A stretch of 64,000 nucleotides of DNA from an uncultured Porphyromonadaceae bacterium (GTDB lineage Bacteria; Bacteroidota; Bacteroidia; Bacteroidales; Muribaculaceae), in the NCBI GenBank assembly GCA_947567425.1, contig CANOLV010000015.1:1-64000 (forward strand), given 5' to 3'. The notes beneath the pieces were generated by a model. That model did not search any database. It saw only the letters and a list, made by a program, of their open reading frames with translations, and was not told where the DNA came from. The number at the start of each line of letters is the position of its first letter. Positions within the stretch are counted from its first letter, which is position 1. The translations under genes were made by a program, and so were the position numbers. This document shows, piece by piece, positions 39,305-60,584 of this stretch.

Positions 39305-39413
39305 TGTTACATAGGCAAAGATATTTGTTACAGTCCAGGCGCACCATGTTATCCCATCAAAGACAAATGAAACACCGCCGCGACATAGCAGTCACACCGT
39401 ATACGTAACTTTG
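39305..39413 (+). promoter_or_regulatory. Operator/promoter A: four phased TGTTAC hexamers and -7 box
   Basis: Hexamers at 39305 (TGTTAC), 39326 (TGTTAC), 39347 (TGTTAT) and 39368 (TGAAAC), each 21 bp apart. The -7 box TAACTTTG is at 39406-39413, 32 bp after the last hexamer. No -33 consensus. Drives the GH43-GH5 unit. Same architecture as operators B and C. Confidence 0.8.
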
Positions 39414-39450
39414 TATTTGACAATGACAGCTTAACCAATCACTCATAACC

Positions 39451-41526
39451 ATGTCTAAATTATCAAGATTCAATGTAGCACAGAAAGCTCTGCTTTCGAT
39501 GTTTTTAGCCACCGCGGCCACTTCCCAGGCCGAAGCACAGGACGCCGTCGCCGCCAATCCCTATCTGCCGTTGTACGAGCATCTGCCCGACGGCGAACCC
39601 CGCGTGTTTGAAGATCCAGATGCACCGGGCAAATACAGAGTATATATAATCGGTTCGCACGACATGCGCACCACCGAATACTGCGGGGCAGACATCCGCA
39701 TGTGGTCGGCTCCCACCGACAATCTTAACGACTGGCGCGACGAAGGACCGATATTCACATATCAAGTCGACGGAAAATGGGATGTAATGTATGCCCCTGA
39801 TCTGGTCGAGATAAACCGACCCGACGGAACACGCGAATATTACCTCTACCCACATAGCCGCGGACCTCGCCGCGAAGCTATGGTATGCAAAGGAACGCGC
39901 CCCGACGGACCGTTTACGCCGGTCAATCTGAACCAGGAAGGCACCGCCACGGTGGCAGGAAGCATTCTCGGATTTGACCCGTCAATTTACGTAGAGACGA
40001 TAACCGATCCGTCAGACCCTGATTTCGCTCAAGGATTCAGAGCTTATGGGTTCTGGGGATTCCAGCGGTCACTCGCCGCCGAACTTGATCCCGCCACCAT
40101 GTACTCCGTGCGCCCCGGCACCGAGGTCATACCCTATTTCATACCCGCAAGCCACCGCTATGGAAGCATACGTGATCCCAAAGGCACTACGTATCCTGCC
40201 CTATACCGCGGACAGAAGCCCGAAGACTTCAACTTCTTTGAAGCTTCGTCCATAAGAAAAGTCGGCAACAAATACATCATGATATTCTCCGGCTATTCTG
40301 GTCCCGACTACGGACTTGGAAGCACCAACTCCACCCTACGCTACGCCTACGGAGATTCGCCGCTCGGACCATGGCGAAGCGGCGGTGTACTGGTCGACTC
40401 GCGCGGCATAGTTCCCGACAAGGACGGCACAAAACTGCAGTGCACCAACGCAGCCCACAATACCCACGGAAGCCTTCAGGAGATCAACGGACAATGGTAC
40501 GTGTTCTACCACCGACCTCCACGCGGATTCGGCTTCGCACGCCAGCCGATGGTGGCACCAGTCAAAATAGTGTGCGACGAGACTCCGGTCAAAGATGGAG
40601 GCCGCGTACTGATCACCGGCTACGACCCGTTTGCCGACAATGAAACGTGGACTGCATCCGCCTCAAACGGCGACTGCTACCAGGGCGCTGAAGTCACCTC
40701 GGAAGGATTCAATATCTTCGGCCTCGACCCCTACCGCTACTACTCCGCCGGATACGCCTGCTATCTGTCGAATGTAGGAAGCCAACAGGATTCATGGGAC
40801 ATCTGGGACAATAATATGCCTATCGACTTACGCGACAGCGATATTGTCGGATTCAAATATTTCGGTTTCGGCGGCCTTGATACGCCCACTAAAGGAATCA
40901 GACCGTTCAAAGGCACACGAAAAGGAAACGACACCGCATTCAACATATTCCTGACACCGACTACCGACAAATCATTCAAAATAGCCATCTGGCTCGACGG
41001 ACCATGGGACAATGCCGTCTGGAAAGGAAAGAAGATCGGCGAAATCACTGTTCCGGCCAACTCCGCCGGCGATATCACCAAATTTACGGCAGACGTGTCG
41101 GAAGCGGTAGACAATCTCGATAAAAAGCATGCCGTATTCCTTGTGGCCGAGGGTGATGCATCCTGCCGGCTGTGCACACTCAACGGAATTGGATTCAGCT
41201 CACGCCATAAGGACATCGAATATCCCCGCACTCCCAAACTGACCATCACAGTCAACGGCAACGAAGTAGCGCTGCCGACAAAGCCCGTATTTTCGACGAA
41301 CGACAATGGACTCACTGAATTAGACCAATATGAAGTGCGCCATACACTTACCGGCAAAAATACTAAAAAGGCAAAAGTAAAAGCCTCGGCCGACATGAAG
41401 GGAGTAAAGATCGACATTGCTCAACCGGATGAGTCCAACGGCACAGCTAAAGTGACATTCGACTATCTCGGCAAGAAAAAGACATACACCATCCATCTCG
41501 AGCGACCGGTCTTAAGCCAACGATGA
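39451..41526 (+). CDS. GH43-like glycosidase with C-terminal beta-sandwich domains
   Basis: 691 aa, signal peptide of about 29 residues (ends AEAQ). Five-bladed beta-propeller (about 35-390). Candidate catalytic carboxylates: FEDPD near the N-terminus (base), LGFDPSIYV (pKa modulator) and NFFEASSIR (acid). Residues about 395-580 look like a carbohydrate-binding beta-sandwich, followed by an about 100-residue Ig-like C-terminal domain. A xylan-side-chain or arabinofuranoside role is inferred from context. First gene of unit A; the GH5 gene starts 37 bp downstream. Confidence 0.82.
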   Translation: MSKLSRFNVAQKALLSMFLATAATSQAEAQDAVAANPYLPLYEHLPDGEPRVFEDPDAPGKYRVYIIGSHDMRTTEYCGADIRMWSAPTDNLNDWRDEGPIFTYQVDGKWDVMYAPDLVEINRPDGTREYYLYPHSRGPRREAMVCKGTRPDGPFTPVNLNQEGTATVAGSILGFDPSIYVETITDPSDPDFAQGFRAYGFWGFQRSLAAELDPATMYSVRPGTEVIPYFIPASHRYGSIRDPKGTTYPALYRGQKPEDFNFFEASSIRKVGNKYIMIFSGYSGPDYGLGSTNSTLRYAYGDSPLGPWRSGGVLVDSRGIVPDKDGTKLQCTNAAHNTHGSLQEINGQWYVFYHRPPRGFGFARQPMVAPVKIVCDETPVKDGGRVLITGYDPFADNETWTASASNGDCYQGAEVTSEGFNIFGLDPYRYYSAGYACYLSNVGSQQDSWDIWDNNMPIDLRDSDIVGFKYFGFGGLDTPTKGIRPFKGTRKGNDTAFNIFLTPTTDKSFKIAIWLDGPWDNAVWKGKKIGEITVPANSAGDITKFTADVSEAVDNLDKKHAVFLVAEGDASCRLCTLNGIGFSSRHKDIEYPRTPKLTITVNGNEVALPTKPVFSTNDNGLTELDQYEVRHTLTGKNTKKAKVKASADMKGVKIDIAQPDESNGTAKVTFDYLGKKKTYTIHLERPVLSQR

Positions 41527-41563
41527 TCAGCAGTCAGCCATACAACTCTAAAACTCGATCAAC

Positions 41564-43621
41564 ATGAGATTTACAATTCAATCATTACGCATAGCCATCT
41601 TATCAGCCATGATAAGCTGCGCCCTCGGACTAAAAGCTTGGGAAGGAATGGCCATGCCCGAGCTGCACGTCAGCGGCAGGTATCTCGTCGACGATCAGGA
41701 CAAGGTGGTCAATCTTCACGGATTCGCACAGACCTATAGTCCCTGGTTCAACGAACAAGGCTCAAAATGGAGCAACTATGATGTCAACGGATGCCTTAAG
41801 TACAATAAAGAAAAGATTGACCAGATCCTCGCCGCGGGCTGGAAAATGAACTTCATCCGACTGCACATGGATCCATATTGGTCCAATAAGCCCGGAGCGC
41901 AGACAACCGGCGAAAACGACATCTCGGCGTTTGACTTCGACCGATTCACCAAATACCTCAACCAGGTGTTTATACCTATGGCCGAATACGCAGTCGGCAA
42001 AGGCCTTTACGTGGTGATGCGTCCGCCAGGCGTATGCCCTGAGAAAATCGCCATCGGCGACAAATACCACCAGTACCTCCTTAAAGTATGGAAACACGTG
42101 GCCTCGCACATCAAACTGAAGAATCATCCCAACATCATGTTTGAGTTGGCAAATGAGCCTATCAACATACTCGGCATAGACGGCACTTACGGAGGGAATT
42201 CACCCGGACATTTCGAGAATCTAAGCAAATATTTCCAGCAGATTGTCGACGTTATGAGAGCACAAGGATGCAGAAACATCCTGTGGGTGCCGGGACTCGG
42301 CTACCAATCATCCTACTCAGGCTATGCCCAATATCCTATTCAAGGCGAAAATATCGGCTACGCCGTACACGCATACCCCGGTTGGTATGGCAGCGACGCC
42401 GAAGAACCGAGCCATGAACTCGGAGGTGTGATGGGCGGTGGATATGAAGGGTTCCAGCGTGGATGGGACAATCAAGTGATGCCTGTGGCCGACTTTGCCC
42501 CCATCATGGTCACAGAGATGGACTGGGCTCCGGCTAAATATGATGCATCCTGGGGCAAAAGCATCACCGGCGTGGAACGCGGCACAGGATTCGGAGCCAA
42601 CTTCAAGTACATAGCCGACCGCACCGGCAACGTCAGCTGGTTGCTGTTCACCGGATGCGAACTTCTTGCCCAATTCAAGGACGACCCCGCCGAAGGCAAC
42701 ACCTTCCTTACCGACCCGGAAGCATGTCCATGGCCTATATACCATTGGTTCCTTGACTATGCCGAGAAATCAGACCAACCGGCCATCCCTCTCAGCCACC
42801 TTGAGATAGAGCCTGCGAGCGACAAACTGACACTCCTGACCGGCGACTCACGAAGCATCACCGTCATGGCAGTCTACACCGACGGGCATAAAGAGGACGT
42901 GACCGTAATAGCCTCATACGAATCGGACGACCCCGAAACCGTAAGACCCATCAATGGACGTCTCTCCGCACTGCGCGACGGAACCACTCAAATCCATGTC
43001 ACATTTACGGGTCGGTACGGCGACACCAAAAGCGTCAGCCAGACCGTAGAAGCCACAGCCTTCCCGTTTATCAGCGGACTTTTCAATCCGTCAATCTGGG
43101 AAACCGGCACTTTCGACGAGACGACGCATGAGATAAAAGTAGGCAAATACGGATTCGCAGGATGGCAATATTCAAGCGGCATCGACCTGTCAGGCTACAA
43201 ATACTGTGTGGCCAAGCTCTCAGGTCCTAACAGCGACAATGTGTCGTTCCGCCTGTTCGACATCAACAACTATTGGAGCGACCCATGCGAAAACGGATTT
43301 AACTCCGACGGCATTGCAGCCGTGGATCTCCACAAGATGAAGTCAAACAGCGGACGCGACATGGATCCGTCGCATCTGTACATAATCGGCTTCTGGGGAA
43401 TGGGCAATCATCCGTTCACCATAGAGAAAGTCTACTTGACCAATTCCGACGACCTGACCGACGGCATCAGCGAGATAATTTATGACGGCGAAGTTCTGGT
43501 CGACGTATATTCGATAACCGGCATACCGGTAAAAATGCAGGTCAAAAGATCTGAGGCCCTCGACGGACTATCAGCAGGCATTTACATCGTGGGCAGAGAG
43601 AAAATGGTGGTACGCAAATAA
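41564..43621 (+). CDS. GH5-like endo-glycanase with C-terminal module and sorting-like tail
   Basis: 685 aa, signal peptide of about 24 residues. Clan GH-A TIM barrel at about 40-405: acid/base E198 in FELANEPI, nucleophile E318 in MVTEMDWAP, plus AVHAYPGW. A BIG2-like Ig domain follows (about 412-495). Residues about 500-635 are a beta module starting FNPSIWETGTF that is also present in the esterase at 62052. The last about 40 residues (VYSITG...GIYIV) resemble a T9SS-type sorting tail. Probably a surface or secreted endo-acting enzyme; substrate could be xylan or another beta-glycan. Confidence 0.85.
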   Translation: MRFTIQSLRIAILSAMISCALGLKAWEGMAMPELHVSGRYLVDDQDKVVNLHGFAQTYSPWFNEQGSKWSNYDVNGCLKYNKEKIDQILAAGWKMNFIRLHMDPYWSNKPGAQTTGENDISAFDFDRFTKYLNQVFIPMAEYAVGKGLYVVMRPPGVCPEKIAIGDKYHQYLLKVWKHVASHIKLKNHPNIMFELANEPINILGIDGTYGGNSPGHFENLSKYFQQIVDVMRAQGCRNILWVPGLGYQSSYSGYAQYPIQGENIGYAVHAYPGWYGSDAEEPSHELGGVMGGGYEGFQRGWDNQVMPVADFAPIMVTEMDWAPAKYDASWGKSITGVERGTGFGANFKYIADRTGNVSWLLFTGCELLAQFKDDPAEGNTFLTDPEACPWPIYHWFLDYAEKSDQPAIPLSHLEIEPASDKLTLLTGDSRSITVMAVYTDGHKEDVTVIASYESDDPETVRPINGRLSALRDGTTQIHVTFTGRYGDTKSVSQTVEATAFPFISGLFNPSIWETGTFDETTHEIKVGKYGFAGWQYSSGIDLSGYKYCVAKLSGPNSDNVSFRLFDINNYWSDPCENGFNSDGIAAVDLHKMKSNSGRDMDPSHLYIIGFWGMGNHPFTIEKVYLTNSDDLTDGISEIIYDGEVLVDVYSITGIPVKMQVKRSEALDGLSAGIYIVGREKMVVRK

Positions 43622-43633
43622 TTAGGCCCTGCA

Positions 43634-43742
43634 TGTTACGTACATAGAGAAATATGTAACGCAACAACCCTACGATGTAACATCGGCAAAGATACGTGTC
43701 ACACATTCATTCCTGACGTGTGGCACGTACTTTTTATCTTTG
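43634..43742 (+). promoter_or_regulatory. Operator/promoter B: four phased TGTTAC hexamers and -7 box
   Basis: Hexamers at 43634 (TGTTAC), 43655 (TGTAAC), 43676 (TGTAAC) and 43697 (TGTCAC), 21 bp apart. -7 box TATCTTTG at 43735-43742, 32 bp after the last hexamer. Drives the GH43 gene at 43779. Confidence 0.85.
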
Positions 43743-43778
43743 CCGTTGCAATCATTATCATAACCACAGCAACAATTT

Positions 43779-45389
43779 ATGAAAACGAGAACACTCATAG
43801 CCACCATCGGCATACTCGCGGCATCGACTGCAGCGCATCTGCACTCAGTGGCCGAACCGGCCCGAATGCAGAATCCCGTAATGTGGGCCGACGTGCCGGA
43901 TCCCGACGTAATCCGCGTGGGCGACGACTACTACATGGTGTCGACCACCATGCACCTCATGCCAGGATGCCCCGTCATGCACTCCAAGGATCTTGTCAAT
44001 TGGGAGACGATCAGCTACGTGTTTGACACGCTTGACGACACCCCCTTCTACAATCTCGACGGAGGGACCGTCTACGGCAAAGGACAGTGGGCCACATCGA
44101 TCCGCTACCATGACGGACGGTTCTACGTGCTCTTTTCGCCCAACGACCACCCTTACAAGTCCTACATCTACACAGCTACAGACCCGGCCGGTAAATGGGA
44201 AATTCTGAGCCGCACCAACCATTTCCACGACTCATCATTCTTATTTGACGACGACGGCAGAGTCTACGTGTTTTCCGGATCCGGGAAGATTCATCTTACC
44301 GAACTCAATCCCGACCTCAGCGGAGTCAAAGCCGGAGGTATAGACCAGACAGTGATCGAGCCGGACGAAGAAACCGCCGGACTTCATGAAGGAAGCAGAG
44401 CCATCAAGCACGACGGAAAATACTATGTAATGGTAATCAACTGGCCGGCAGGACGCCCGCGCAGACAGCTATGCTACCGCGCGGACTCCATCACAGGTCC
44501 ATACGAGCGCATGGTCGTGCTCGAAGACAATTTCGCGGGATTCCCCTACGCCGGACAGGGAACCATCGTCGACGACCCGGACGGAAATTGGTGGGGAATG
44601 ATATTCCAGGACCGAGGAGCCGTCGGACGCGTACTCACCCTTATGCCGTGCCGATGGACCGACGGATGGCCGATGCTCGGCGATGCCGACGGGAAGATTC
44701 CTGCTACAATGGACTACGACAAGAAGTCGTCACACCCCACCGACATCGTGACTTCAGATTCATTCGACAGCCCCGAGCTCGGCAAAAACTGGCAGTGGAA
44801 CCACTGCCCCGACAATGAAGCCTGGTCGCTCACTGACAGAAAGGGACATCTGCGACTACGGACATCACGTACCGTATCAAACATATATGAGGCACCTAAC
44901 ACCATCAGCCAGCGCATGGAAGGCCCCGTATGCCAAGGTGAGATAAGCATGGACATATCACACATGAAGGATGGCGACGTGGCCGGATTCGGAGCCTTTA
45001 ACGGGCATTCGACCCTCATGTCAGTAAGAAAGCTTGGAAAGAAGACTTATCTGGTAAAACATAACACTCAGGTAAATTTCAAAAAGGACTCCAAGGTCAT
45101 AGCAGGCATCGACAATGAGGACGAAGCCTCCCTGGAACTCAAATCATCACGGATATATCTCCGCATAATAGCCGACTTCCGTCTGGGACGCGACATAGCA
45201 CAATGCCAGTACTCCACCGACGGCAAGAACTGGACCGACATCGGCCACAACTACAAAATGCGCTACGACTACACCCGCCTGTTTATGGGAAGCCGTTTTG
45301 CCATCTACAATTACGCGACCGCGACACGAGGAGGCTACGTGGACATCGACAGATTTGACTACACGCTCCTGCCCGACAAATCAGAATAG
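43779..45389 (+). CDS. GH43 beta-xylosidase/arabinofuranosidase (two-domain)
   Basis: 536 aa, signal peptide of about 26 residues. N-terminal propeller (about 30-320) with DVPDPDVIRVGDDYYMVS (base Asp), SSFLFDDDGR region and LHEGSRAIK (acid Glu). C-terminal about 200-residue concanavalin-like GH43_C2 sandwich, typical of xylosidase-type GH43 such as subfamily 12. Releases xylose or arabinose from xylo-oligosaccharides; exact specificity is inferred. Sole gene of unit B, ended by the hairpin at 45477-45519. Confidence 0.9.
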   Translation: MKTRTLIATIGILAASTAAHLHSVAEPARMQNPVMWADVPDPDVIRVGDDYYMVSTTMHLMPGCPVMHSKDLVNWETISYVFDTLDDTPFYNLDGGTVYGKGQWATSIRYHDGRFYVLFSPNDHPYKSYIYTATDPAGKWEILSRTNHFHDSSFLFDDDGRVYVFSGSGKIHLTELNPDLSGVKAGGIDQTVIEPDEETAGLHEGSRAIKHDGKYYVMVINWPAGRPRRQLCYRADSITGPYERMVVLEDNFAGFPYAGQGTIVDDPDGNWWGMIFQDRGAVGRVLTLMPCRWTDGWPMLGDADGKIPATMDYDKKSSHPTDIVTSDSFDSPELGKNWQWNHCPDNEAWSLTDRKGHLRLRTSRTVSNIYEAPNTISQRMEGPVCQGEISMDISHMKDGDVAGFGAFNGHSTLMSVRKLGKKTYLVKHNTQVNFKKDSKVIAGIDNEDEASLELKSSRIYLRIIADFRLGRDIAQCQYSTDGKNWTDIGHNYKMRYDYTRLFMGSRFAIYNYATATRGGYVDIDRFDYTLLPDKSE

Positions 45390-45476
45390 TGAATGACATC
45401 AATCAATAAAAATAGGTTATAGTAAAAAAGATTGGATTAGAATAATATTTAGTTTAGGTCCCTATGAATTCACTTT

Positions 45477-45519
45477 GCGAGCCGGACAGTCAGGAGTTAC
45501 CGCTGTCCGGCTCGCCTTT
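45477..45519 (+). terminator. Terminator of the GH43 unit B
   Basis: Perfect 13 bp stem GCGAGCCGGACAG (45477-45489) with 45503-45515, 13 nt loop, followed by CTTTT. It isolates unit B from operator C. Confidence 0.85.
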
Positions 45520-45558
45520 TATCACAAATCGGCCTAACCGGCTGACAGTCACCACACA

Positions 45559-45667
45559 TGTTACGTACGAAGAGACATTTGTTACACCCTTTGTAGCAAA
45601 TGTAACCTGCTTAAAGAAATGCGTAACACATTTAAATCACAAACACGCGTGACGGAATGTAAATTCG
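45559..45667 (+). promoter_or_regulatory. Operator/promoter C of the xus operon
   Basis: Hexamers at 45559 (TGTTAC), 45580 (TGTTAC), 45601 (TGTAAC) and 45622 (CGTAAC), 21 bp apart. At the conserved 32 bp distance the -7 position reads TAAATTCG (45660-45667), one base off TAnnTTTG. Drives the GH43-xus operon. Confidence 0.8.
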
Positions 45668-45713: not shown

Positions 45714-47441
45714 ATGACAATGGACAAAAGACTTTCATCCTGCATCGTTACAGCATCGTTGCTGATGACCGCAACAGGATGCTCGACACAAAAAAGCGGC
45801 ACCATCGAACCCCAAAGTTCGGTGGCCATATTCGATTCATTCTCCTACAAGGGCATGGACGACTTCTACTCCGAGAATCCGCTTCCGGACGCAAGCTCGT
45901 TCTACAATCCTATTCTTCCAGGATGGTATTCCGACCCTACGATATGCACTAATGGAGAAGGCGACTACTTCATCGCCACATCGACATTTACCTACGTGCC
46001 GGGAGTACCTCTGTTCCATAGCCGCGACCTGGTCAATTGGCGACAGATAGGACACATACTCACCCGTGAATCTCAGCTCAACAACTTCCAGCATCAGCAC
46101 GTGAGCGGCGGCATATTCGCCCCCGACTTAAAATACAATCCGGCCAACAAGACATATTACATGATCACCACCAATGTCGGTGCCGGCAACTTCTTCGTGA
46201 AGACTACCGACCCGTTCAGCGGCGAGTGGAGCGACCCCGTATATCTTCCGGAAGTACAGGGAATCGACCCGTCGTTCTTCTTCGACAACGACGGCCGGGC
46301 ATACATCGTCAACAATGACGACGCTCCGGAAGGCAAAGCCGAGTACCCTGGCCACCGCACAGTCAGAGTCGTAGAATTCGACACCAATACAGACAAGTGC
46401 ATCGGCCAACGCAAAATAGTGGTCAATAAAGGCTGGCGTCCGCAGGACAAACCAATCTGGTGCGAGGGTCCGCACATTTATAATATAAACGGTACATACT
46501 ATCTTATGACCGCCGAAGGTGGAACGGCCGAAGGCCACAGTGAAGTCATCTACAAAGGCAAGACTCCATTCGGACCATATACTCCATGGGAAGGCAATCC
46601 GATTCTCACACAGAGAGGTCTTGACAGTTCACGTCCGAATCCTGTGACCTGCGCAGGCCACGCCGACCTGATCCAGGCTAAAGAGGGCGATTGGTGGGCA
46701 GTGTTCCTGGCATGCCGTCCGATCGACGGTGAATTTGAGAATCTCGGCCGCGAGACATTTATGATGCCCGTACAGTGGACCGAGGACGGATGGCCCTACA
46801 TCACACGTGAGAACGAAGCAGTCCCGATGATACTGCGCCGCGAAGGAGCACAGCGCGACCCTGAATTCGCATTCGGAAACTTTGAATCAACCACCGACTT
46901 CACCGCCCCTGAGCTTGGCCACGAATGGATGACGCTCCGTGGCGACGCGGCGGACATGATTTCGCTGAAAAACAATCCCGGACACCTCACCATAGCATGC
47001 GCCGACGTGTCGACCGCCGACAAGGACATACTGCCGTTCATCGGCCGTCGTGTCCACAACCATAAATACGAATGTGCCACCTCAATGACATTCAATGCCG
47101 AACATCCCGACCAGAACGCAGGCCTTGTCGTGATGAAAGATGAATCACATCAATATCTGCTCGCCAAAGGATGCGACGAAGGGGGTAAACATATCGTACT
47201 CAGAAAGATCGACAGGTCGGGAAGCGAGGACCTCGCCAAAAACGCCATCGACGACTCAAACGACTCCGTATGCCTCAAAGTAGTGTCGAAAGGCAAAACA
47301 TACGACTTCTACTATTCAACCGACGGAGGCAACAACTGGAATCCCATAAAGGAAGGTGTCGATGCCCGCCACACATCGACAGCCGCCGCGGGAGGCTTCA
47401 CCGGAACCACGGTAGGCCTTTATGCATCGAACAAGCGATAA
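45714..47441 (+). CDS. GH43 beta-xylosidase-like lipoprotein
   Basis: 575 aa; an alternative ATG six bases later is possible. Lipobox MTATGC (Cys at about 23). GH43 propeller (about 60-370): WYSDPTI (base), QGIDPSFFFDNDG (modulator) and IWCEGPHIY (acid). C-terminal GH43_C2 sandwich (about 385-575). Resembles subfamily 1/11 xylosidases. Predicted membrane-anchored exo-enzyme that trims xylo-oligosaccharides. First gene of the xus operon, with a 158 bp gap to xusA and no terminator between. Confidence 0.9.
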   Translation: MTMDKRLSSCIVTASLLMTATGCSTQKSGTIEPQSSVAIFDSFSYKGMDDFYSENPLPDASSFYNPILPGWYSDPTICTNGEGDYFIATSTFTYVPGVPLFHSRDLVNWRQIGHILTRESQLNNFQHQHVSGGIFAPDLKYNPANKTYYMITTNVGAGNFFVKTTDPFSGEWSDPVYLPEVQGIDPSFFFDNDGRAYIVNNDDAPEGKAEYPGHRTVRVVEFDTNTDKCIGQRKIVVNKGWRPQDKPIWCEGPHIYNINGTYYLMTAEGGTAEGHSEVIYKGKTPFGPYTPWEGNPILTQRGLDSSRPNPVTCAGHADLIQAKEGDWWAVFLACRPIDGEFENLGRETFMMPVQWTEDGWPYITRENEAVPMILRREGAQRDPEFAFGNFESTTDFTAPELGHEWMTLRGDAADMISLKNNPGHLTIACADVSTADKDILPFIGRRVHNHKYECATSMTFNAEHPDQNAGLVVMKDESHQYLLAKGCDEGGKHIVLRKIDRSGSEDLAKNAIDDSNDSVCLKVVSKGKTYDFYYSTDGGNNWNPIKEGVDARHTSTAAAGGFTGTTVGLYASNKR

Positions 47442-47531
47442 TTAACCATTATATTTTTTAACCTTAAAACAAACGATTAAACAACCTTATTAAAAAACAA
47501 ATCAAACTAAACAATCAAACCTTAACTAATC

Positions 47532-47561
47532 CGGTCGAGGATGCTGAATGCTCCGTGACCG
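47532..47561 (+). promoter_or_regulatory. Hairpin in the xusA leader
   Basis: CGGTC...GACCG with an inner GGA/TCC pairing and one mismatch, 38 nt before the xusA start. No U-tract follows, so it is not an obvious terminator. Possible mRNA-processing or stability element; weak. Confidence 0.3.
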
Positions 47562-47599
47562 AAGAATCAAATCATCAGTAATTATAAAGACTAATAACA

Positions 47600-50500
47600 A
47601 TGAAGAATGTAAAGAATTTACATCGATGCATCACCTTTCTGCTTACGGTCATGCTGTTCGGAGTAGCTCCGATGCTGGCCGATACCGTGAAGGGTACGGT
47701 AGTTGACGACACCGGCGAACCGCTGATCGGCGCCACCGTCGCACTAAAAGGCCAGAAAGCCATCGGAACAGCAACGGACTTCGACGGTAATTACGTGCTC
47801 ACAGTTCCCGATGCCAAGAAGGCAGTTCTCATCTTCTCCTACATAGGCACACTGCCGAGAGAGGAGAAAGTCAACGGACGCGCGAGAGTAGACGTTGTGC
47901 TTGAAAGCAACACAGCCGAACTCGACGAAGTCGTAGTAGTAGGATACGGCCAACAGAAGAAAGTATCCGTGGTAGGTGCCATAACTCAGACCACAGGCGA
48001 GGTTCTTGAACGCACCGGCGGTGTGTCGAGTGTGGGAGCCGCGCTCACCGGTAATCTGCCGGGTGTCACCACCATCGCATCCACAGGCCGTCCCGGCGAC
48101 GAAGACCCACAGATAGTCATCCGCGGTGTCAGCTCCTGGAACGGCAGCGATCCACTTATCCTCGTCGACGGCATCGAACGCCCGATAAGCTCGGTCGACA
48201 TAGGTTCGGTCAAGTCAGTGTCAGTGCTTAAGGACGCATCAGCCACCGCTGTCTATGGTGTAAAAGGCGCAAACGGTGTCATACTTATCACCACCAAACG
48301 CGGTCAGGAAGGTCGTGCCAACATCTCCGTCGGCATGAACGTCACCGCAAAGGTCGTGTCGCAGCTGCCTAAGAAATATGACTCTTACGGCGCCCTGTAC
48401 ATCCGCAACCGCGCCATCGAGCGCGAACTCGGACTCGCTCCCGATTCCTGGGCAAGCATACGCCCGCTCGACATCCTTGACAAGTACCGCAATCCGGCCA
48501 ACCTCGAAGAAGCCGAACGCTATCCCAACGTCGACTGGCAGGACGAGCTGTTCAAAAAGCACGCCATGAGCTACAATCCCAACGTCAACATCTCCGGAGG
48601 TACCAAGAACGTCAAATACTTCGCCGCAGTTGACTTTCTCCACGAAGGCGACCTTTTCAAGGAGTGGGACAATAACCGCGGCTATCAGGCCGGCTACGGC
48701 TACGACCGCGTGAACGTACGTTCGAATCTGGACTTCCAGATTACTCCGTCGACAGTACTGAAGGTTAATCTGTCCGGGTCTCACGGACAGAAAAAGGGCC
48801 CTTTTTCGATCGAGTTCAATTCCTGGGCTGAAACGCAGCTTTGGCAGGCAGCCTATTCGGCTCCGTCCGACGCATTCCTGCCCCGCTACAGCGACGGCTC
48901 TTGGGGATATTATCCGAAAGACACCCAGGGAGCACCTAACTCCGTCGTAAATCTTGCCCTTGCAGGTGCCGGAAAGCACACCACCACACGAATCAACACA
49001 GACTTCACCCTTGAGCAGGATCTGTCGTTCATCACCAAAGGATTGAAGGCGAGCGCCCTCGTATCGTGGGACAACGTATTCGTTGAACGCAGGCGCGGTA
49101 TCTCAGACGACAACAACGGCACCCAGTTCAAATGGATCGATCCCGACACCGGCGAAGTCACCATCAAAGAAAAGGGCAACAGCTCCAACAACTTCGACTT
49201 CTTCGAAGAACTCAAATGGGCCACTAACGGCGGTACCGTGGACAACGGCGCCACACAGCGCAACGTATTCTATCAGTTCCAGCTCAATTACGGACGCAAA
49301 TTCGGACTGCACGACGTCACTGCAATGGCCGTGTTCAACCGCACCGAGCGCGCCACCGGCTCCAACTTCACATCATACCGCGAGGACTGGGCATTCCGCG
49401 CCACATACAACTTCGCCGACAAATATTTCGCCGAATTCAACGGCGCATACAACGGCTCTGAGAAATTCTCCAACGAGAACCGCTTCGAATTCTTCCCCTC
49501 AGGAGCACTCGGGTGGATGATCAGCCAGGAAAAATTCATGGGATTCTCCCGCGGATGGCTCGACCTGCTCAAAGTGCGCTACTCGCTCGGTAAGGTCGGC
49601 GACGACAACGTAGGCTCACGCTGGCTCTACGAGAACCAATGGGGCTACTCCAACGTGATGAACCTGTCCACAACTCCGGAGAGCAACCGCTCACCCTATA
49701 CATGGTACTATATGACCGTGCTCGGCAACCCGAACGTACACTGGGAGACCGCCACCAAGCAGAACATCGGTATCGACTACTCCTTCCTGAGCAACACATT
49801 TGCCGGATCTGTTGAAATATTCAATGAAAAGCGCACCGATATCCTCGTTGCAGGCGGAAGCCGCGCCATACCCTCATTCTTCGGAACTTCCGCTCCATAT
49901 CTGAATATGGGTAAAGTGGACTCAAAGGGTTATGAAATCGAACTCCGGTTCAACAAGACCATCGCCAACGGCATGCACTTCTGGGCCAACCTCAACATGA
50001 CCCACGCCGAAAACAAAATCAAGTCGTTTGACGATCCTCAGCTTAAACCCGCCTACCAGAAGCAGACTGGATTCGCCATCGGTCAGGACCACGTGATCTA
50101 CGACAACGGATTCGCAAACACCTGGGACGACATCATCGCGATGACCAAGCACAACACCAACGACAATCAGAAGCTCCCCGGCCAGTACTTCACAGTCGAC
50201 TATAACGGCGACGGAGTCATCGACTCAAACGACTCCACCCCGTATGGCTACACCGGTACTCCGCAGAACAACTACAATGCCACAATCGGATGGGATTGGA
50301 AGGGCTGGAGCGTATATGTCCAGTTCTACGGCGTGACCAACGTTCAGCGCACCGTAGTGTTCAACTCGCTCGGCGGACACCTCAACACCGTATATGACCA
50401 GGGATCTTACTGGAGCCCGTCAAACACCGGAGCCGACACTGCCATGCCACGATGGAACTCCACTCCTGCCTACTATTCCGGATGGGACAACATATGCAAC

Positions 50501-50740
50501 CACTACGACGGTTCATACATCCGTCTGAAAAATGCAGAAATAGCCTATACTTGGACCAAGGGATGGGTGCGTTCGCTCGGCCTTTCTTCCCTGAAACTGT
50601 ACATCAACGGCAACAACCTCTGGGTATGGAGCCGCATGCCCGACGACCGCGAATCAAACTACGCGTCGACCGGAAATGCATCGCAGGGCGCATATCCTAC
50701 CGTACGCCGTTTCAACTTCGGATTCAAGTTTGAATTATAG
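47600..50740 (+). CDS. xusA: SusC/RagA TonB-dependent transporter, XusA-type
   Basis: 1046 aa outer-membrane transporter. Signal peptide (about 1-28), CarboxypepD_reg-like domain (VKGTVVDDTGEPLIGATV, about 30-110), the SusC box LDEVVVVGYG, plug domain (about 120-235, ILVDGIERP), then a 22-strand barrel ending in a terminal Phe-Glu-Leu. Imports xylo-oligosaccharides with its SusD partner 23 bp downstream. Symbol given by synteny with xusA-E/xyn10C of Prevotella bryantii. Confidence 0.95.
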   Translation: MKNVKNLHRCITFLLTVMLFGVAPMLADTVKGTVVDDTGEPLIGATVALKGQKAIGTATDFDGNYVLTVPDAKKAVLIFSYIGTLPREEKVNGRARVDVVLESNTAELDEVVVVGYGQQKKVSVVGAITQTTGEVLERTGGVSSVGAALTGNLPGVTTIASTGRPGDEDPQIVIRGVSSWNGSDPLILVDGIERPISSVDIGSVKSVSVLKDASATAVYGVKGANGVILITTKRGQEGRANISVGMNVTAKVVSQLPKKYDSYGALYIRNRAIERELGLAPDSWASIRPLDILDKYRNPANLEEAERYPNVDWQDELFKKHAMSYNPNVNISGGTKNVKYFAAVDFLHEGDLFKEWDNNRGYQAGYGYDRVNVRSNLDFQITPSTVLKVNLSGSHGQKKGPFSIEFNSWAETQLWQAAYSAPSDAFLPRYSDGSWGYYPKDTQGAPNSVVNLALAGAGKHTTTRINTDFTLEQDLSFITKGLKASALVSWDNVFVERRRGISDDNNGTQFKWIDPDTGEVTIKEKGNSSNNFDFFEELKWATNGGTVDNGATQRNVFYQFQLNYGRKFGLHDVTAMAVFNRTERATGSNFTSYREDWAFRATYNFADKYFAEFNGAYNGSEKFSNENRFEFFPSGALGWMISQEKFMGFSRGWLDLLKVRYSLGKVGDDNVGSRWLYENQWGYSNVMNLSTTPESNRSPYTWYYMTVLGNPNVHWETATKQNIGIDYSFLSNTFAGSVEIFNEKRTDILVAGGSRAIPSFFGTSAPYLNMGKVDSKGYEIELRFNKTIANGMHFWANLNMTHAENKIKSFDDPQLKPAYQKQTGFAIGQDHVIYDNGFANTWDDIIAMTKHNTNDNQKLPGQYFTVDYNGDGVIDSNDSTPYGYTGTPQNNYNATIGWDWKGWSVYVQFYGVTNVQRTVVFNSLGGHLNTVYDQGSYWSPSNTGADTAMPRWNSTPAYYSGWDNICNHYDGSYIRLKNAEIAYTWTKGWVRSLGLSSLKLYINGNNLWVWSRMPDDRESNYASTGNASQGAYPTVRRFNFGFKFEL

Positions 50741-50763
50741 TTCAAATCTTAAAACTAACAGAA

Positions 50764-52635
50764 ATGAAAAAATTTAGCAAATATATCAGTTCCGCAGTGA
50801 CGCTTGCTCTGGCATTGGGCGCGGCATCATGCTCCGACTATCTTGACAAGGCTCCTGAAGTCGACCTGTCGGAAAGGGATGCTTTCACCAATTTCCGCAG
50901 TTTCCAGGGCTTCACTGAAGAAATCTACAGCTGTATCCCCGACTTCTGCAAACTCTACTGGACCAACAGCTGGAACTGGGGCGAGGATGAGATCATGAAC
51001 GTCGGCATAGACTACCACATGACCTACAAGGTCGACAACGGCGACTTCTGGGGCTGGCAGGCCGAACATGACGGCTGGGGATCGGGATGGCTCGACAAGA
51101 ACGGCTTCAACCCCCGAGGCGACCGCTTCAGTAAAGGTCTGTGGCCCGGTGCCTGGTACGGCATCCGCAAGGCCAACATGGGTCTGGAACATCTCGACAT
51201 GCTGACCGACGCCACCGCCGAACAGCGTAAATTTGTCGAAGGCCAGCTATACTTCTTCCGCGGATGGTTCCACTTCCAGCTGATGCAGTATTTCGGCGGA
51301 CTCCCATACATCGACACAGTGCTCGAAAATGACTTCCGCCTGCCGCGTCTGTCCTACGCCGAATGTGCCGAAAAGGCAGCAGCCGACCTCCGCAAGGCAG
51401 CCGACCTGCTCCCAATCAACTGGGACAAGACCACCACCGGTAATCCGACTATGGGCAACAACGACCTCCGCATCAACAAGATCATGGCCCTCGGCTATCT
51501 CGGAAAGTGCCTTCTTTGGGCCGGAAGCCCGCTGATGAACGAAGAGTCGACCGGATCGGCCACCTACAACGCCGACTTCTGCAACCGCGCCGCCGAAGTG
51601 TTCGGCGAACTGCTGACGCTGATCGAAAGCGGTCAGACCCAGTACTCCATGGTCGACTTCAAGGATATGCCCGAACTGTTCTACACCAAAGGAAAGAGCG
51701 GTCTGATGCCCGGCCTTACAGAAGCCATATTCCGCTGTCCTTCCGATCCGGGTTGGGGCGCGGCCGTATGGGGACAGGCCAAATGCTACGCTCCACGCGC
51801 CATCAATAAGGATGCCGGTGTGCTCTATCTCCCTACCGCCAACTACGTCAACTACTACGGCATGGCCAACGGTCTGCCTCTCGACGATCCTGAATCTGGC
51901 TTCGACCCCACGCATCCGTTCAAGGACCGCGACCCGCGCTTCTACACCGACATCGCGTTTGACGGAGTACGCGTGGTCAGAAGCGACAGCAAGGATGCCG
52001 ACGGATGCCGCTATGCATCGCTCGCATCTGACGGAACCATGCGCTCAGTGACCACCGACAGCCGTACAGGCTATCTGCTCCTGAAGTTCACCGGAGTCGG
52101 CATGAACGACTACGATCAGGACCACGGATGGTCGCCTCAATATAACCTCGCAGTGCCCTGGATGCGCATACCCGACGTATACCTGATGTATGCCGAAGCC
52201 ATCGCCAACGCCATGGGTGTACCTACAGCCAAATCGTCCAACTTCTCAAAGAACGCGATAGAGGCTGTCAACGTGGTACGCGAACGTGCCGGCGTGGATC
52301 CCGTCAACGCCAAATACACCGGAAGCCTCGACGGATTCATGAGCGAGCTTCGCCGCGAACGCGCTGTAGAGCTTTCGTTTGAGAGCCACCGCTTCAACGA
52401 CCTCCGCCGGTGGAAACTACTCGACAAGTATCCCTACAACATCAAGACTTCGCAGGAATTCACCCGCGACCCGAATTTCGACCCCGCCACCGACGATGCC
52501 TCAGAGGCACGCGTGATCGGATGGAGCGAGAAGGAGATTCTGACCCGCAACTTCACCTCGAAGCACTATTGGTTGCCGCTTAAGGTTTCTGACGTCACCA
52601 TCTATCCTGAATTCAAGCAAAATCCCGGATGGTGA
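50764..52635 (+). CDS. xusB: SusD/RagB glycan-binding lipoprotein, XusB-type
   Basis: 623 aa. Lipobox GAASC (Cys at about 23) followed by SDYLDKAPE, as is usual for SusD. TPR-rich helical body; typical late motifs YLMYAEAIANAMG, RERAGVDPV and LRRERAVELSFESHRFNDLRRWK. Binds xylan at the surface and forms the lid of XusA. Aromatic residues are abundant in the middle region, fitting a glycan platform. Confidence 0.95.
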   Translation: MKKFSKYISSAVTLALALGAASCSDYLDKAPEVDLSERDAFTNFRSFQGFTEEIYSCIPDFCKLYWTNSWNWGEDEIMNVGIDYHMTYKVDNGDFWGWQAEHDGWGSGWLDKNGFNPRGDRFSKGLWPGAWYGIRKANMGLEHLDMLTDATAEQRKFVEGQLYFFRGWFHFQLMQYFGGLPYIDTVLENDFRLPRLSYAECAEKAAADLRKAADLLPINWDKTTTGNPTMGNNDLRINKIMALGYLGKCLLWAGSPLMNEESTGSATYNADFCNRAAEVFGELLTLIESGQTQYSMVDFKDMPELFYTKGKSGLMPGLTEAIFRCPSDPGWGAAVWGQAKCYAPRAINKDAGVLYLPTANYVNYYGMANGLPLDDPESGFDPTHPFKDRDPRFYTDIAFDGVRVVRSDSKDADGCRYASLASDGTMRSVTTDSRTGYLLLKFTGVGMNDYDQDHGWSPQYNLAVPWMRIPDVYLMYAEAIANAMGVPTAKSSNFSKNAIEAVNVVRERAGVDPVNAKYTGSLDGFMSELRRERAVELSFESHRFNDLRRWKLLDKYPYNIKTSQEFTRDPNFDPATDDASEARVIGWSEKEILTRNFTSKHYWLPLKVSDVTIYPEFKQNPGW

Positions 52636-52668
52636 TGAACGTTAAAAAAACTATCAAATAAGTACACA

Positions 52669-55503
52669 ATGAAAAATAGATATAACTATATGATTCTTGG
52701 CGCGTTCCTGGCCGCACTGCCGTCAGCCGCGACCGCGCAGGATGAAGTCGGAGAGTCGACCGACTCACTGAACCAAATGGTACACGTGGCCTTCCGGGAA
52801 ATGGACCAGCGCGACATCATGGGAGGCGTGTCGTTCGTCGACATGGAAAGTCTTTTCGACAAGCGCTATTCCACCTACTCGCTTTCCGACATGATGTCGG
52901 TCACCACCAGCGACCTCTGGGACATGGGTGGCGGACTCGTGCTGGTCGACGGCGTTGAACGCCCGGCCAACGACATTACCCCGTCTGAAATCAGCCAGGT
53001 CACCTATCTGAAAGGTGCCCAGGCAGTGGTGCTCTACGGTAGCCGCGCCGCAAAAGGCGCCATCCTGATCACCACCAAGCGTGGAAAAGCCGACGGTCTG
53101 CACATATCAGTGCAGGGAAATGCTGGAATATACGTGCCGAAACGCTACCCCAAGTACCTCGCTTCTGCAGAATACATGAGCCTGTACAACGAGGCACGCC
53201 GCAATGACGGACTCGAAGAAGCATTCTCGGCCGAGGATATATACAACTATGCCTCAGGCTCCAACAAATACCGCTATCCGAGCACCAACTTCTTCTCCGA
53301 CGAATATCTGAAGAAGCACTACGAACGCTACGAAGGCACAGCTCAGTTCTACGGAGGCGGACGCTTCGCACGCTTCTACGCCAACATCGGTCTTTACAAC
53401 ACCAACGACCTGATAAACTTCGGCGAGGGAAAGAAGAACCACACCACACGCCTGAACGTGCGCGGCAACATCGACCTGACCATGAACGACTGGATCGGCG
53501 GTTGGGTCAACACAAGCGCCACGTTCTACGACGGACGCGGCGACCTCGCGAACTTCTGGGGTGAATCGGCCAATATGCGTCCGACCACACCCGGAACGTC
53601 ACCCTTCGCACCACTGATTCCGATCGACGCCATCGACCCCAACGACGAGGCATCGATGACATACGTCAACAATTCCCGCTACATAATCGGCGGCAAATAC
53701 CTGATCGGCGGTACACAGAACTACCAGACCAACCCGTTCGCCGCCATGTACGCCGCCGGCTACAACAAGTACACGAGCCGTCACCTCAACTTCGACGCCG
53801 GAATCAAGATTGACCTCGGCAAGGTGGTTCCCGGACTTAAGTTCCAGACCCAGGTGGCCGTTGACTATGCCACAAGCTACAACACCTCCATCAACAACTC
53901 TTACGCCGTATATGAGGCACAGTGGTACACTTATAACGGAAAAGACTATATCGGAGGCCTCACAAAATATGGTGAGGACAAGCGCACCGGCACTCAGAAT
54001 GTGAGCGGATCATACGAACAGCAGACCATCATGTGGGCCGGCCAATTCAACTATAACCGCAAGTTCGGCGAAGTCCACAACCTCAACGCCATGCTCGTGG
54101 CCAATGCCTACCAGCTGACATACACCGGTAAGTATCACCGCGACAGCAACGCCAATCTCGGACTCAACGTGTCATACAACTATGACCACCGCTACTATCT
54201 GGAGTTCAACGGCGCCATGATCCATTCGGCAAAGCTCGCCCCCGGACACCGCACCGGATTCTCTCCCGTCGGCACGATCGGCTGGCGCATCAGCCAGGAG
54301 GACTTCCTTAAGGACTCTTCATGGCTGAACGAACTCAAAGTTGACGTCACCTACGGCAAAATCAAGCAGGACATCGACCTTGTGGTGGATGCCAACGACA
54401 TCGACAAGAACTTCTACATGTATATGGGCAACTACACCGCATCAGGCACATGGTGGGGATGGAACGAAGTTGCCAATTCAAAACAGACGTTCCAGTCTTT
54501 GCGAGGCAACAACCCCGACCTGACATTCGTCACCCGCGAAGAGTTCAACATCGGACTTAACCTGGCCATGTTCAACGACCGCGTGCGCCTCGATGCCAAT
54601 TTCTACAACATCGTCATGGACGGTATGCCGGTGACTGCATCCACAGTTTACCCCAACTACTTCCACACCTACTGGCCGGAGACTTCGTTCATACCCTACG
54701 TCAACTACAACAAGCAGCGCCATACCGGATTCGACGCATCGCTCAATCTTAACCAGCGTTTCGGCGATTTCCATGCCACTATTGGTGTAAACGTAGCCTA
54801 CCACACCACCAAAAATCTTAAGATCAGCGAACTTGTGGAGCATGAATGGCTGAAATCTGAAGGACAGGCCATCGACGCCCTCCGCGGCTACAAGTGCCTC
54901 GGATTCTTCACCTCCGAGGATGAGATAGCCTCGTCGGCTTGCGTTGACCGCGCAAACACCAAACCGGGCGACCTCAAGTACATGGACATGAACGACGACG
55001 GCATCATCGACTCCAAGGACCAGGTGGTTCTCGGCAAGTGGGGTTCTCCGTGGTCGATGGGTGCCAACATCACTGTCGGCTACAAGGGTCTGACCCTCTA
55101 CGTGGCAGGAAGCGGACGATTCGGCGCCACAGGATTCAAGGACAACTCCTACATGCAAGTCTATGGCGACCGCAAATACTCCGACGTAGTGCGCGGACGC
55201 TGGACTCCGGAGACTGCGGCGACAGCCACATATCCGCGTCTGACCTCGCAGAACAACAATATGAACTTCGTGTCATCCGACTTCTGGACATACAGCACCG
55301 ACGCGTTCTTCCTCAACACCGTTCAGCTCACCTACACTCTCCCTTCCGCCCTTTTCCAGGACAAGTTTGTCAAGGGGCTTCAGGTGTACGTGTCAGGCAA
55401 CGACCTCGCCACAATATCGAAGCATGCCAAGTATCTGGAGACTTCAGTGGGAAGCTCGCCGCAGTGCCGAAGCTACAATCTCGGTGTCAAAGTCAACTTC
55501 TAA
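52669..55503 (+). CDS. xusC: SusC-like TonB-dependent transporter, XusC-type (short N-terminus)
   Basis: 944 aa. After the signal peptide (ends TAQ) it lacks the CarboxypepD_reg domain and the LDEVVVVGYG-type box seen in XusA. Instead a short segment MVHVAFREMDQRD leads into a reduced plug (VLVDGVERPANDITP; ILITTKRGK) and the barrel, which ends in Phe. This matches the second SusC of tandem xylan loci. TonB coupling may differ from XusA. Confidence 0.93.
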   Translation: MKNRYNYMILGAFLAALPSAATAQDEVGESTDSLNQMVHVAFREMDQRDIMGGVSFVDMESLFDKRYSTYSLSDMMSVTTSDLWDMGGGLVLVDGVERPANDITPSEISQVTYLKGAQAVVLYGSRAAKGAILITTKRGKADGLHISVQGNAGIYVPKRYPKYLASAEYMSLYNEARRNDGLEEAFSAEDIYNYASGSNKYRYPSTNFFSDEYLKKHYERYEGTAQFYGGGRFARFYANIGLYNTNDLINFGEGKKNHTTRLNVRGNIDLTMNDWIGGWVNTSATFYDGRGDLANFWGESANMRPTTPGTSPFAPLIPIDAIDPNDEASMTYVNNSRYIIGGKYLIGGTQNYQTNPFAAMYAAGYNKYTSRHLNFDAGIKIDLGKVVPGLKFQTQVAVDYATSYNTSINNSYAVYEAQWYTYNGKDYIGGLTKYGEDKRTGTQNVSGSYEQQTIMWAGQFNYNRKFGEVHNLNAMLVANAYQLTYTGKYHRDSNANLGLNVSYNYDHRYYLEFNGAMIHSAKLAPGHRTGFSPVGTIGWRISQEDFLKDSSWLNELKVDVTYGKIKQDIDLVVDANDIDKNFYMYMGNYTASGTWWGWNEVANSKQTFQSLRGNNPDLTFVTREEFNIGLNLAMFNDRVRLDANFYNIVMDGMPVTASTVYPNYFHTYWPETSFIPYVNYNKQRHTGFDASLNLNQRFGDFHATIGVNVAYHTTKNLKISELVEHEWLKSEGQAIDALRGYKCLGFFTSEDEIASSACVDRANTKPGDLKYMDMNDDGIIDSKDQVVLGKWGSPWSMGANITVGYKGLTLYVAGSGRFGATGFKDNSYMQVYGDRKYSDVVRGRWTPETAATATYPRLTSQNNNMNFVSSDFWTYSTDAFFLNTVQLTYTLPSALFQDKFVKGLQVYVSGNDLATISKHAKYLETSVGSSPQCRSYNLGVKVNF

Positions 55504-55521
55504 TCATTTCAGATTTCTACA

Positions 55522-57270
55522 ATGAAAAAGATAATTTCAATAGCTCTATGCTCTTGCGCCATCGCACTGACAAGCTGCGACGACCTCTTTGAGCCTGCGA
55601 TAGAGAACACTCAGGACATCGATGCCATCCATCGTAATCCTAACTATGCCGAAGCTCTGTTGGGCAATGCCTATACTCGTATACCGGGCTATTCGTGGAA
55701 CGATCCAGCCACCGACGACGCCGTCTCCAACGACGCCTCCAACAGCTACCGCAAGATTGCGGCCGGCACATGGACCTCATCCAACAATCCGCTTGATTCC
55801 TGGACCAACTGCCGCTCCGCCATACAGTATATCAACCTGCTGCTCGCCAACGCCGACAATGTCAACTGGGCTGAAGACCCCGTGGCCGCGGCCATGTACT
55901 GCGACCGATTCAAAGGCGAGGCCTACGCGCTCAGGGCATTCTTCATGTACCATCTGCTCCGTGCCCACGGAGGCATGACCGCCGACGGACAGCTCCTCGG
56001 TGTGCCCATCGTCAACGAACCGGAAGGAGCAAGCACCAACTTCAATATTCCGCGCAACACATTCGCCGAATGTCTGCAAGCCATCAAGGACGATGCCGCG
56101 AAAGCGCTCGAGCTGTTGCCGATCGACTATAGCGACACCAAAAATGCCTCCATGGCCTCTAAATACGAAGGTGCCGACAATAGCCACGTCGTACGCGTGT
56201 TCGGCCAGAAATTTTCAGGCCGAATCTCCGGCCGGATCGTCGAGGCCATACTCGCACAGGCTGAACTTCTTGCCGCATCGCCGGCATATCAGGCCTCGGG
56301 CGTGACCTGGGCCGACGCCGCCGATGCATCGGCAAAAGTTCTTGACCGAATCAACGGTCCGCAGGGAATCGACCCAACCGGATGGCACTGGTTCATCAAC
56401 GCCGACGACATCAAGAACCTGACCGACGGCTTGAACGTGCCTGAAATGATCTGGAGAAGCGAGAAGGACAATTCAAACAGTCTTGAGTCAGACAACTTCC
56501 CCCCGACCCTATACGGAAACGGACGCATCAACCCGACCCAGAATCTCGTCGATGCATTCCCTATGGCCAACGGTTATCCGGTAAGACATGCCGACAGCGA
56601 CTTCGACCCGGCAGATCCATACACCGGACGTGACCCGCGTCTGACCTCCTACATCCTCTGCAACGGCAAAGAAGCAGGAACGGCCAACGACATCATCTAT
56701 ACCTCCACCGACGGTGACACGAACGACGGTCTGAACGTGATCAGCACATCGACCCGTACAGGCTACTACCTGAAGAAATTCCTTCGCCAGGATGTTAACT
56801 GCAACCCCTCGAACTCAAACCAGCAGCAGCACTACACTGCCCGCATACGCTACACAGAGATATTCCTCAACTATGCGGAAGCCGCCAACGAGGCATGGGG
56901 CCCGACAGGAACAGGATCGCACGCCTACTCGGCATACGACGTGATCAAGGCCATCCGCTCGCGTGCAGGCGTGGGTACCGACAATGGCGACCCGTATCTT
57001 GAATCGGTCAAGGGCGACAAGGATGCCATGCGTCAGCTCATCCGCAATGAGCGCCGCCTGGAACTCTGCTTCGAGGGATTCCGCTTCTGGGACCTCCGTC
57101 GCTGGAAAGCCGACCTCAACGAGACCGCCAAAGGAATCCAGATAACCGGAACTACATATTCACCGATCGATGTGGACACCCGCAACTACAGGGACTACAT
57201 GATCTACGGACCCATTCCTAACAGCGAGGTGCTTAAGTTCAGCGAACTGAAGCAAAACGCAGGATGGTAA
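55522..57270 (+). CDS. xusD: SusD-like glycan-binding lipoprotein, XusD-type
   Basis: 582 aa. Lipobox LTSC then DDLFEP. SusD motifs: GEAYALRAFFMYHLLRAHGG (about 125-145), YTEIFLNYAEAANEAWG, and RNERRLELCFEGFRFWDLRRWK near the C-terminus. Starts 18 bp after xusC and is its likely partner. Confidence 0.95.
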   Translation: MKKIISIALCSCAIALTSCDDLFEPAIENTQDIDAIHRNPNYAEALLGNAYTRIPGYSWNDPATDDAVSNDASNSYRKIAAGTWTSSNNPLDSWTNCRSAIQYINLLLANADNVNWAEDPVAAAMYCDRFKGEAYALRAFFMYHLLRAHGGMTADGQLLGVPIVNEPEGASTNFNIPRNTFAECLQAIKDDAAKALELLPIDYSDTKNASMASKYEGADNSHVVRVFGQKFSGRISGRIVEAILAQAELLAASPAYQASGVTWADAADASAKVLDRINGPQGIDPTGWHWFINADDIKNLTDGLNVPEMIWRSEKDNSNSLESDNFPPTLYGNGRINPTQNLVDAFPMANGYPVRHADSDFDPADPYTGRDPRLTSYILCNGKEAGTANDIIYTSTDGDTNDGLNVISTSTRTGYYLKKFLRQDVNCNPSNSNQQQHYTARIRYTEIFLNYAEAANEAWGPTGTGSHAYSAYDVIKAIRSRAGVGTDNGDPYLESVKGDKDAMRQLIRNERRLELCFEGFRFWDLRRWKADLNETAKGIQITGTTYSPIDVDTRNYRDYMIYGPIPNSEVLKFSELKQNAGW

Positions 57271-57302
57271 AAAATCTTTAACACTCTAAACTAAGACATT
57301 TC

Positions 57303-58382: not shown

Positions 58383-58402
58383 ATCCTAAACTCGATTAAA
58401 CA

Positions 58403-60511: not shown

Positions 60512-60540
60512 TATTTGAAAAATTTTTAATAACATCCACT

Positions 60541-60575: not shown

Positions 60576-60584
60576 TGCATCTAT

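Follow-up and report, generated by a model that had tools for sequence, protein, structure and literature searches.

The xylan locus of this uncultured Muribaculaceae bacterium raises a key question: are its transcription units switched on together by a single regulator, and if so, which DNA signal and which protein would do it? In the 64,000-nucleotide stretch analysed here (the window), the locus comprises three units on the + strand. Unit 1 holds the genes for a 691-aa protein without a Pfam match (39451..41526) and a 685-aa protein with a GH5 (cellulase family) domain (41564..43621), and unit 2 (43779..45389) encodes a 536-aa GH43 protein with a GH43_C2 domain. Unit 3 (45714..63515) encodes a GH43 protein, a SusC-like protein and SusD, a second SusC-like protein and SusD, a DUF5627 protein, GH10, GH43-CBM6 and a SASA esterase, and runs beyond the window into GH97, GH95 and GH127 genes; it is probably one long operon. 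Directly upstream of the xylan units, at 36916-38910 (+), lie genes for a 171-aa sigma-70-like factor of ECF size and two ORFs without a Pfam match, and no counterpart of the factor or of the ORFs was found in the locus stretches examined of three relatives (G002, G003 and G005).

Each unit is preceded by four TGTWAC-like hexamers on the + strand which, read in pairs, form two 27-bp dimer sites of the pattern TGTWAC-N6-ARAGA-N4-TGTWAC. Array 1 (TGTTAC/TGTTAC/TGTTAT/TGAAAC, matching (TGTWAC)x4 at 22 of 24 positions) consists of a distal site at 39305..39331 (half-sites 39305, with the box AAAGA at 39317-39321, and 39326; 0 mismatches) and a promoter-proximal site at 39347..39373 (half-sites 39347, with AAAGA at 39359-39363, and 39368; 2 mismatches), and the -7 box TAACTTTG (39406..39413, +) follows 32 bp after it. 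In array 2 (TGTTAC/TGTAAC/TGTAAC/TGTCAC, 23/24), the distal site occupies 43634..43660 (half-sites 43634, with AGAGA at 43646-43650, and 43655; 0 mismatches) and the proximal site 43676..43702 (half-sites 43676, with AAAGA at 43688-43692, and 43697; 1 mismatch), again with a -7 box, TATCTTTG (43735..43742, +), 32 bp after the array. Array 3 (TGTTAC/TGTTAC/TGTAAC/CGTAAC, 23/24) has its distal site at 45559..45585 (half-sites 45559, with AGAGA at 45571-45575, and 45580; 0 mismatches) and its proximal site at 45601..45627 (half-sites 45601, with AAAGA at 45613-45617, and 45622; 1 mismatch); its -7 box TAAATTCG (45660..45667, +), likewise at 32 bp, is one base off TAnnTTTG, a variant that also occurs in the relative G011. 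An earlier sequence-only reading of this DNA had reported twelve starting positions for the hexamers, nine steps of 21 bp and, in front of the -7 boxes, three gaps of 32 bases; all were re-verified without exception. Before the SusC gene at 47600 and before 60662, no array-like pair scored above 8/12, and a separate array for that SusC gene was rejected on this basis (best pair 8/12). In G002, where the second GH43 gene is missing, the array stands directly before SusC.

The three arrays with their 21-bp step are far beyond chance. In 60 simulated 64-kb sequences generated from a first-order Markov model of the window and searched on both strands, no position scored 20/24 or better for steps between 10 and 40 bp; the real window attains it at step 21 only, among the same steps. 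The 27-bp dimer pattern with up to 2 mismatches yields 6 matches in the window versus a mean of 0.03 in 100 shuffles. As TGTWACA is nearly its own reverse complement, the hexamer by itself gives no orientation.

The search was extended to the 2.92-Mb genome, where the four-hexamer pattern with up to 3 mismatches returned 10 rows, made up of four arrays together with their opposite-strand readings and 21-bp shifts; the reversed pattern, used as a control, gave 3 matches at the same threshold. The fourth array, at C10:17488-17556 on the - strand, has TAAATTTG 31 bp on from its last hexamer, followed by a second xylan operon (SASA esterase, MFS transporter, GH10, GH43 and GH67). Since its sequence was absent from the window in which the regulon had been proposed, it is an independent success of that idea. 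The dimer pattern with up to 2 mismatches has 9 matches in this genome, eight of which are the two sites of each array, and the arrays precede xylan genes only. The sequence-only reading had also suggested a strict genome pattern, which held in part: an exact TGTNAC pair placed 30-33 bp before TAnnTTTG recovers only two of the four arrays.

Another important question is whether the four hexamers of an array are equivalent, as they had been taken to be. In the four arrays of this genome, an ARAGA-like box at +12 to +16 (scored as present with 4 or 5 of 5 matches and as absent with 3 or fewer) accompanies all copies 1 and 3 (8/8) and no copy 2 or 4 (0/8). The box was first spotted in these arrays and afterwards tested on relatives, where 13 arrays have it, with at least 4/5 matches, in 21 of 26 odd copies versus 1 of 26 even copies. 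Two of the 13 (G003c and L159) came from a pattern that itself contained the box; the 11 found via the hexamers alone give 18/22 odd versus 1/22 even copies. One further locus, G003:C1:107188, has a good proximal dimer only and was excluded from the count. The model of four equal hexamers was rejected, because copies with and without the ARAGA box alternate, and the same alternation makes the array a putative pair of tandem asymmetric dimer sites. The positions and spacing given earlier stand, and their equality is replaced by a true repeat unit of 42 bp, of which each array contains two tandem copies, TGTWAC-N6-ARAGA-N4-TGTWAC.

The distance to the promoter is equally regular. Of the 16 rows examined, 14, from five genomes, keep the four-copy register, and every one of them has its -7 box beginning 31 or 32 bp beyond the last hexamer, with three of these boxes one base off TAnnTTTG. 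The other two are single dimers in G003 (365463 and 393264) with the -7 box at 31 bp, as read from the sequence by eye. At held-out loci, which had no part in deriving the distance rule, a strict TAnnTTTG lies at 31/32 bp for 16 of 31 dimer sites and at 72-74 bp, that is, one 42-bp unit further up, for 8 of 31; the remaining 7 of 31 dimer matches have a strict box at neither distance. When 54 named loci were approached from TAnnTTTG instead, 31 hexamer pairs were found at 31/32 bp versus 1 for the mirrored hexamer. A further 19 strong pairs stand at 72-74 bp, and the pair score 41/42 bp below them averages 5.3/6.0 versus 3.0 to 4.7 at other shifts, which suggests that a degenerate proximal dimer is often present.

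Among 31 strong proximal dimers outside the genus, only three are preceded at exactly 42 bp by a second dimer of equal strength, with one more at 41 bp and two at 31 bp. The double strong site is, as far as these genomes indicate, mainly a feature of this genus, and the dimer site with its -7 distance recurs in other Bacteroidales genera. Some dimer sites, at L145 (7296 and 7327), L166 and L175, come in pairs 31 bp apart or precede TAnnTTTG by 62-64 bp; these distances are three turns instead of four.

Which protein would read these sites? The best candidate is a hybrid two-component system (HTCS) protein of 1341 aa, encoded just past the window's contig at G000:C50:989-5014 on the - strand. 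Its Pfam domains are Reg_prop, HisKA, HATPase_c, Response_reg and HTH_18, with Y_Y_Y below the cut-off (21.4 bits), so that the predicted chain unites propeller, histidine kinase, receiver and AraC-type domain. The window's contig, C15, extends 5,475 bases beyond the window and breaks off within a GH127 gene, of which it has the first 460 aa without a stop; contig C50 opens with the last 339 aa of a GH127 protein, which match the rest of an 800-aa protein of G011. Because the two halves (L028 4095-5474 and L047 1-1020, at the C15/C50 junction) correspond to one ORF in G011, the contigs adjoin within this gene, and the HTCS gene lies beside the xylan locus. The order and orientation, GH127 and then a convergent HTCS gene, are alike in C50 and in G011, where a single contig carries the locus. 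Moreover, HTCS orthologues close the same locus in all four relatives examined (G011, 71% identity; G003, 51%; G002, 48%; G005, 47%), all of which carry arrays. By this evidence the HTCS gene is placed in or beside its presumed PUL, and the regulator type that had been predicted from the geometry, an HTCS with an AraC-type output domain, is the type found at the end of the locus here and in the four relatives.

Alignment of the DNA-binding domains revealed a segment of 15 residues, SRVHLHRKLKELTNQ, in which none of the 13 aligned HTCSs of this kind has more than one change and from which the host's eight other HTCS-like proteins differ. By placement from AraC structures, we take this segment to surround the first recognition helix. 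In Dysgonomonas (L133), a perfect dimer site stands next to an HTCS with no more than 32% identity and a different recognition segment (SRTQLHRKLKEITGI).

A survey of 247 genomes of the family was used to compare the distribution of the sites with that of the regulator. An HTCS with at least 41% identity over nearly the full length, a cut-off chosen after seeing the list, is present in 12 genomes, and the four-hexamer pattern with up to 2 mismatches in 18. The ARAGA box occurs in copy 1 in seven of these 18, all seven being among the 12 genomes with the HTCS, to which none of the other 11 belongs (Fisher 7.8e-11, a value given no weight here, with related genomes taken as independent and the cut-off set after the list had been seen). 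Five of the 12 HTCS genomes are without a four-copy array at this threshold. The reversed hexamer pattern matches 33 of the 247 genomes, versus 18 for the forward pattern, and none in the genus. The hexamer pattern alone was rejected as a family-wide search tool: the 17 matches listed, in 11 genomes without a close HTCS, are without the box and include simple-sequence runs.

The dimer pattern calls for similar care. Across 13 genomes, with up to 2 mismatches, it has 70 matches versus 69 for its reverse (9 versus 5 in the own genome), and a lone 2-mismatch match therefore means little. The weight rests on exact matches, pairing, the -7 distance and the neighbouring genes. Exact dimer matches number 16 and are found in G000, G002, G003, G011, G032 and G117. 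Outside the genus, a dimer match with 1 or 2 mismatches lies less than 200 bp from the HTCS gene in three of eight orthologue genomes (G136, G189 and G237); these eight genomes contain 22 dimer matches in total, of which about 0.003 would be expected near the HTCS gene by position alone. The conservation anticipated by the sequence-only reading is borne out by this recurrence in genomes with an orthologous HTCS, as four-copy arrays in 7 of 12 and as single sites near the gene in 3 of 8. The outcome for specificity likewise favoured that reading: boxed arrays are confined to HTCS genomes among the 247, and the own-genome arrays to xylan genes.

The predicted targets in relatives were assessed from the ORFs downstream of 17 hand-chosen promoters, a non-random sample. 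Sixteen have an ORF of at least 150 aa, and 14 of these 16 encode carbohydrate-related Pfam domains: GH3, GH5, GH31, GH36, GH67, GH97, SusC, MFS, two DUF5597/GH35/42, three GH43 or GH43_C2-only and one more GH43. Of the remaining two, one is a 68.5% relative of the 39451 protein and the other has neither a domain match nor such a likeness. Two sites precede GH31 and GH36 genes, which are not plainly xylan genes. The 39451 protein itself has an 84% identical counterpart in G011, and its 68.5% relative, in G003, is encoded 1.4 Mb from the xylan locus behind an exact dimer site of its own, which suggests that the 691-aa protein is a steady member of the predicted regulon. Five dimer sites of G003 (L042, L046, L055, L172 and L173) are spread over its sequence at about 0.11, 0.37, 0.39, 1.03 and 1.74 Mb, and these sites form a predicted dispersed regulon.

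Taken together, these data favour the reading, to which we give a probability of about 0.86, that the arrays serve as operator for a xylan-responsive HTCS of the XynR kind, the product of the gene at G000:C50:989-5014(-), which would switch four promoters together. The earlier proposal that one regulator controls the three units jointly gains support from the fourth array, the HTCS at the locus end and the recurrence of the same -7 distance elsewhere, and a single sugar sensor probably turns on both the window's cluster and the second cluster on C10. In the proposed mechanism, the HTCS would be dimerized through its kinase domain and, on sensing a xylo-oligosaccharide (a ligand suggested by the genes), would phosphorylate its own receiver domain; the two AraC-type DNA-binding domains thus freed would fill both half-sites on one DNA face. 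In each 42-bp unit the upstream half-site is TGTWAC plus the ARAGA box about one helical turn on, followed 21 bp later by the half-site of TGTWAC only. The proximal dimer would sit against the -33 region and contact RNA polymerase, and cooperativity or strength would come from another dimer lying four turns (42 bp) further up, so that the four promoters, three in the window and one on contig C10, would be switched in concert. The sequences recognized by the primary sigma factor are TAnnTTTG at -7 and, near -33, TTTG (PMC7366714); because the proximal half-site would reach the -33 region, the regulator probably replaces the -33 contact. A more elaborate version, possible if rather doubtful, is that the 84-bp array acts as a co-operative switch in which two HTCS dimers set four AraC-type domains side by side with a 42-bp period, all on one face of the DNA. 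Firing of the promoters would then require activated sensors to gather in the membrane at the DNA; the proximal dimer would touch the polymerase at the fixed 31/32 bp, and further dimers upstream would be tolerated only a whole number of turns away (42 bp or, less often, 31 bp).

Could the arrays instead belong to another AraC-type protein, with the C50 HTCS controlling something else? The geometry by itself would suit any AraC-type dimer, and the genome encodes 18 HTH_18 proteins, two of them as stand-alone proteins in the window (18001-18906 and 29562-30419). The sequence-only reading had placed the regulator outside the window, correctly as far as the HTCS is concerned, and had overlooked this pair. 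However, both proteins are encoded over 8 kb upstream, where the neighbouring genes are unrelated, and nothing found here links them to the sites, whereas an HTCS is present at the locus in 5 of 5 array genomes examined and beside a site in three further genomes; we regard this alternative as improbable and rejected the stand-alone proteins as the regulator. Global carbon control, with the hexamers as sites of a Crp-like regulator such as BT4338 of B. thetaiotaomicron, appears very improbable: one arm of the published Crp motif does look like TGTTAC, and many sugar genes are under this regulator, but the arrays are 21-bp direct repeats with an asymmetric box, stand before xylan genes only in the own genome, and do not contain the published 22-bp Crp palindrome wwwTATGTTnTAnAACATAwww in the array sequences compared, on which evidence this candidate was also rejected. 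Finally, that the sigma-70-like factor at 36916-37431 drives the promoters and the repeats are incidental is hardly credible and was likewise rejected, for although the factor adjoins unit 1, the -7 boxes have the form TAnnTTTG that the primary sigma factor recognizes, the loci of G002, G003 and G005 are without such a factor in the stretches examined, and the fourth array is on another contig.

The operator of a xylan HTCS thus proposed extends a known class. Direct repeats of about 21 bp have been known as predicted HTCS motifs since 2013, when they were described upstream of PUL genes and with an average spacing of 21 bp (Ravcheev et al. 2013, PMC3878776); according to the same text, the two monomers of an HTCS dimer bind on one DNA face, and the motif sequence varies by regulator. 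HTCSs are described as dimerizing via the kinase and as restraining their DNA-binding domain up to the point of receiver phosphorylation (PMC11253607). The arrays share the marks of HTCS-type operators, a direct repeat of about 21 bp and, in the genomes compared, conservation together with an orthologous HTCS. In the literature searched (mostly titles, abstracts and open text), no description was found of an operator for a xylan HTCS in which two asymmetric dimer sites stand in tandem; the xylan operator itself, its asymmetric half-sites, their tandem doubling and the fixed distance to the promoter were likewise not found there. These results provide a predicted regulator together with its operator and regulon for xylan digestion in Muribaculaceae and, where the dimer sites are single, in further genera of Bacteroidales. 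Moreover, a loose 'direct repeat' becomes, through the half-site asymmetry and the constant spacing to the promoter, a rule for finding the targets of other HTCSs; whether membrane-bound regulators work as pairs of dimers is a question prompted by the doubled site.

Three known systems invite comparison. The Bacteroides HTCS operators of Ravcheev et al. are, like the arrays here, direct repeats of about 21 bp upstream of PUL genes; in the published text they have two sites each, whereas here two tandem dimer sites follow at 42 bp with alternate boxes and a fixed distance of 31/32 bp, and none of the 16 regulons in the table of that study is named for xylan. In Prevotella bryantii, the HTCS XynR (Miyazaki et al. 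2003) is needed for the induction of two xylan clusters, one with the XusA/C transporters and the other with an endo-xylanase, a beta-xylosidase and an inner-membrane transporter (PMC8002723). The same two-cluster division is seen here in gene content, and arrays are present at both xylan clusters, whose joint control by the HTCS is predicted. The third system is AraC of E. coli, which at araI1-I2 binds direct-repeat half-sites 21 bp apart next to the promoter, the promoter-distal half-site having both contact boxes and the proximal one being weaker. The arrays thus resemble araI1-I2 in the 21-bp direct repeat, the fuller distal half-site and the position adjacent to the promoter; AraC, however, is a soluble protein that binds arabinose and has a single dimer site at this promoter, whereas the regulator predicted here is a membrane kinase fusion with two dimer sites.
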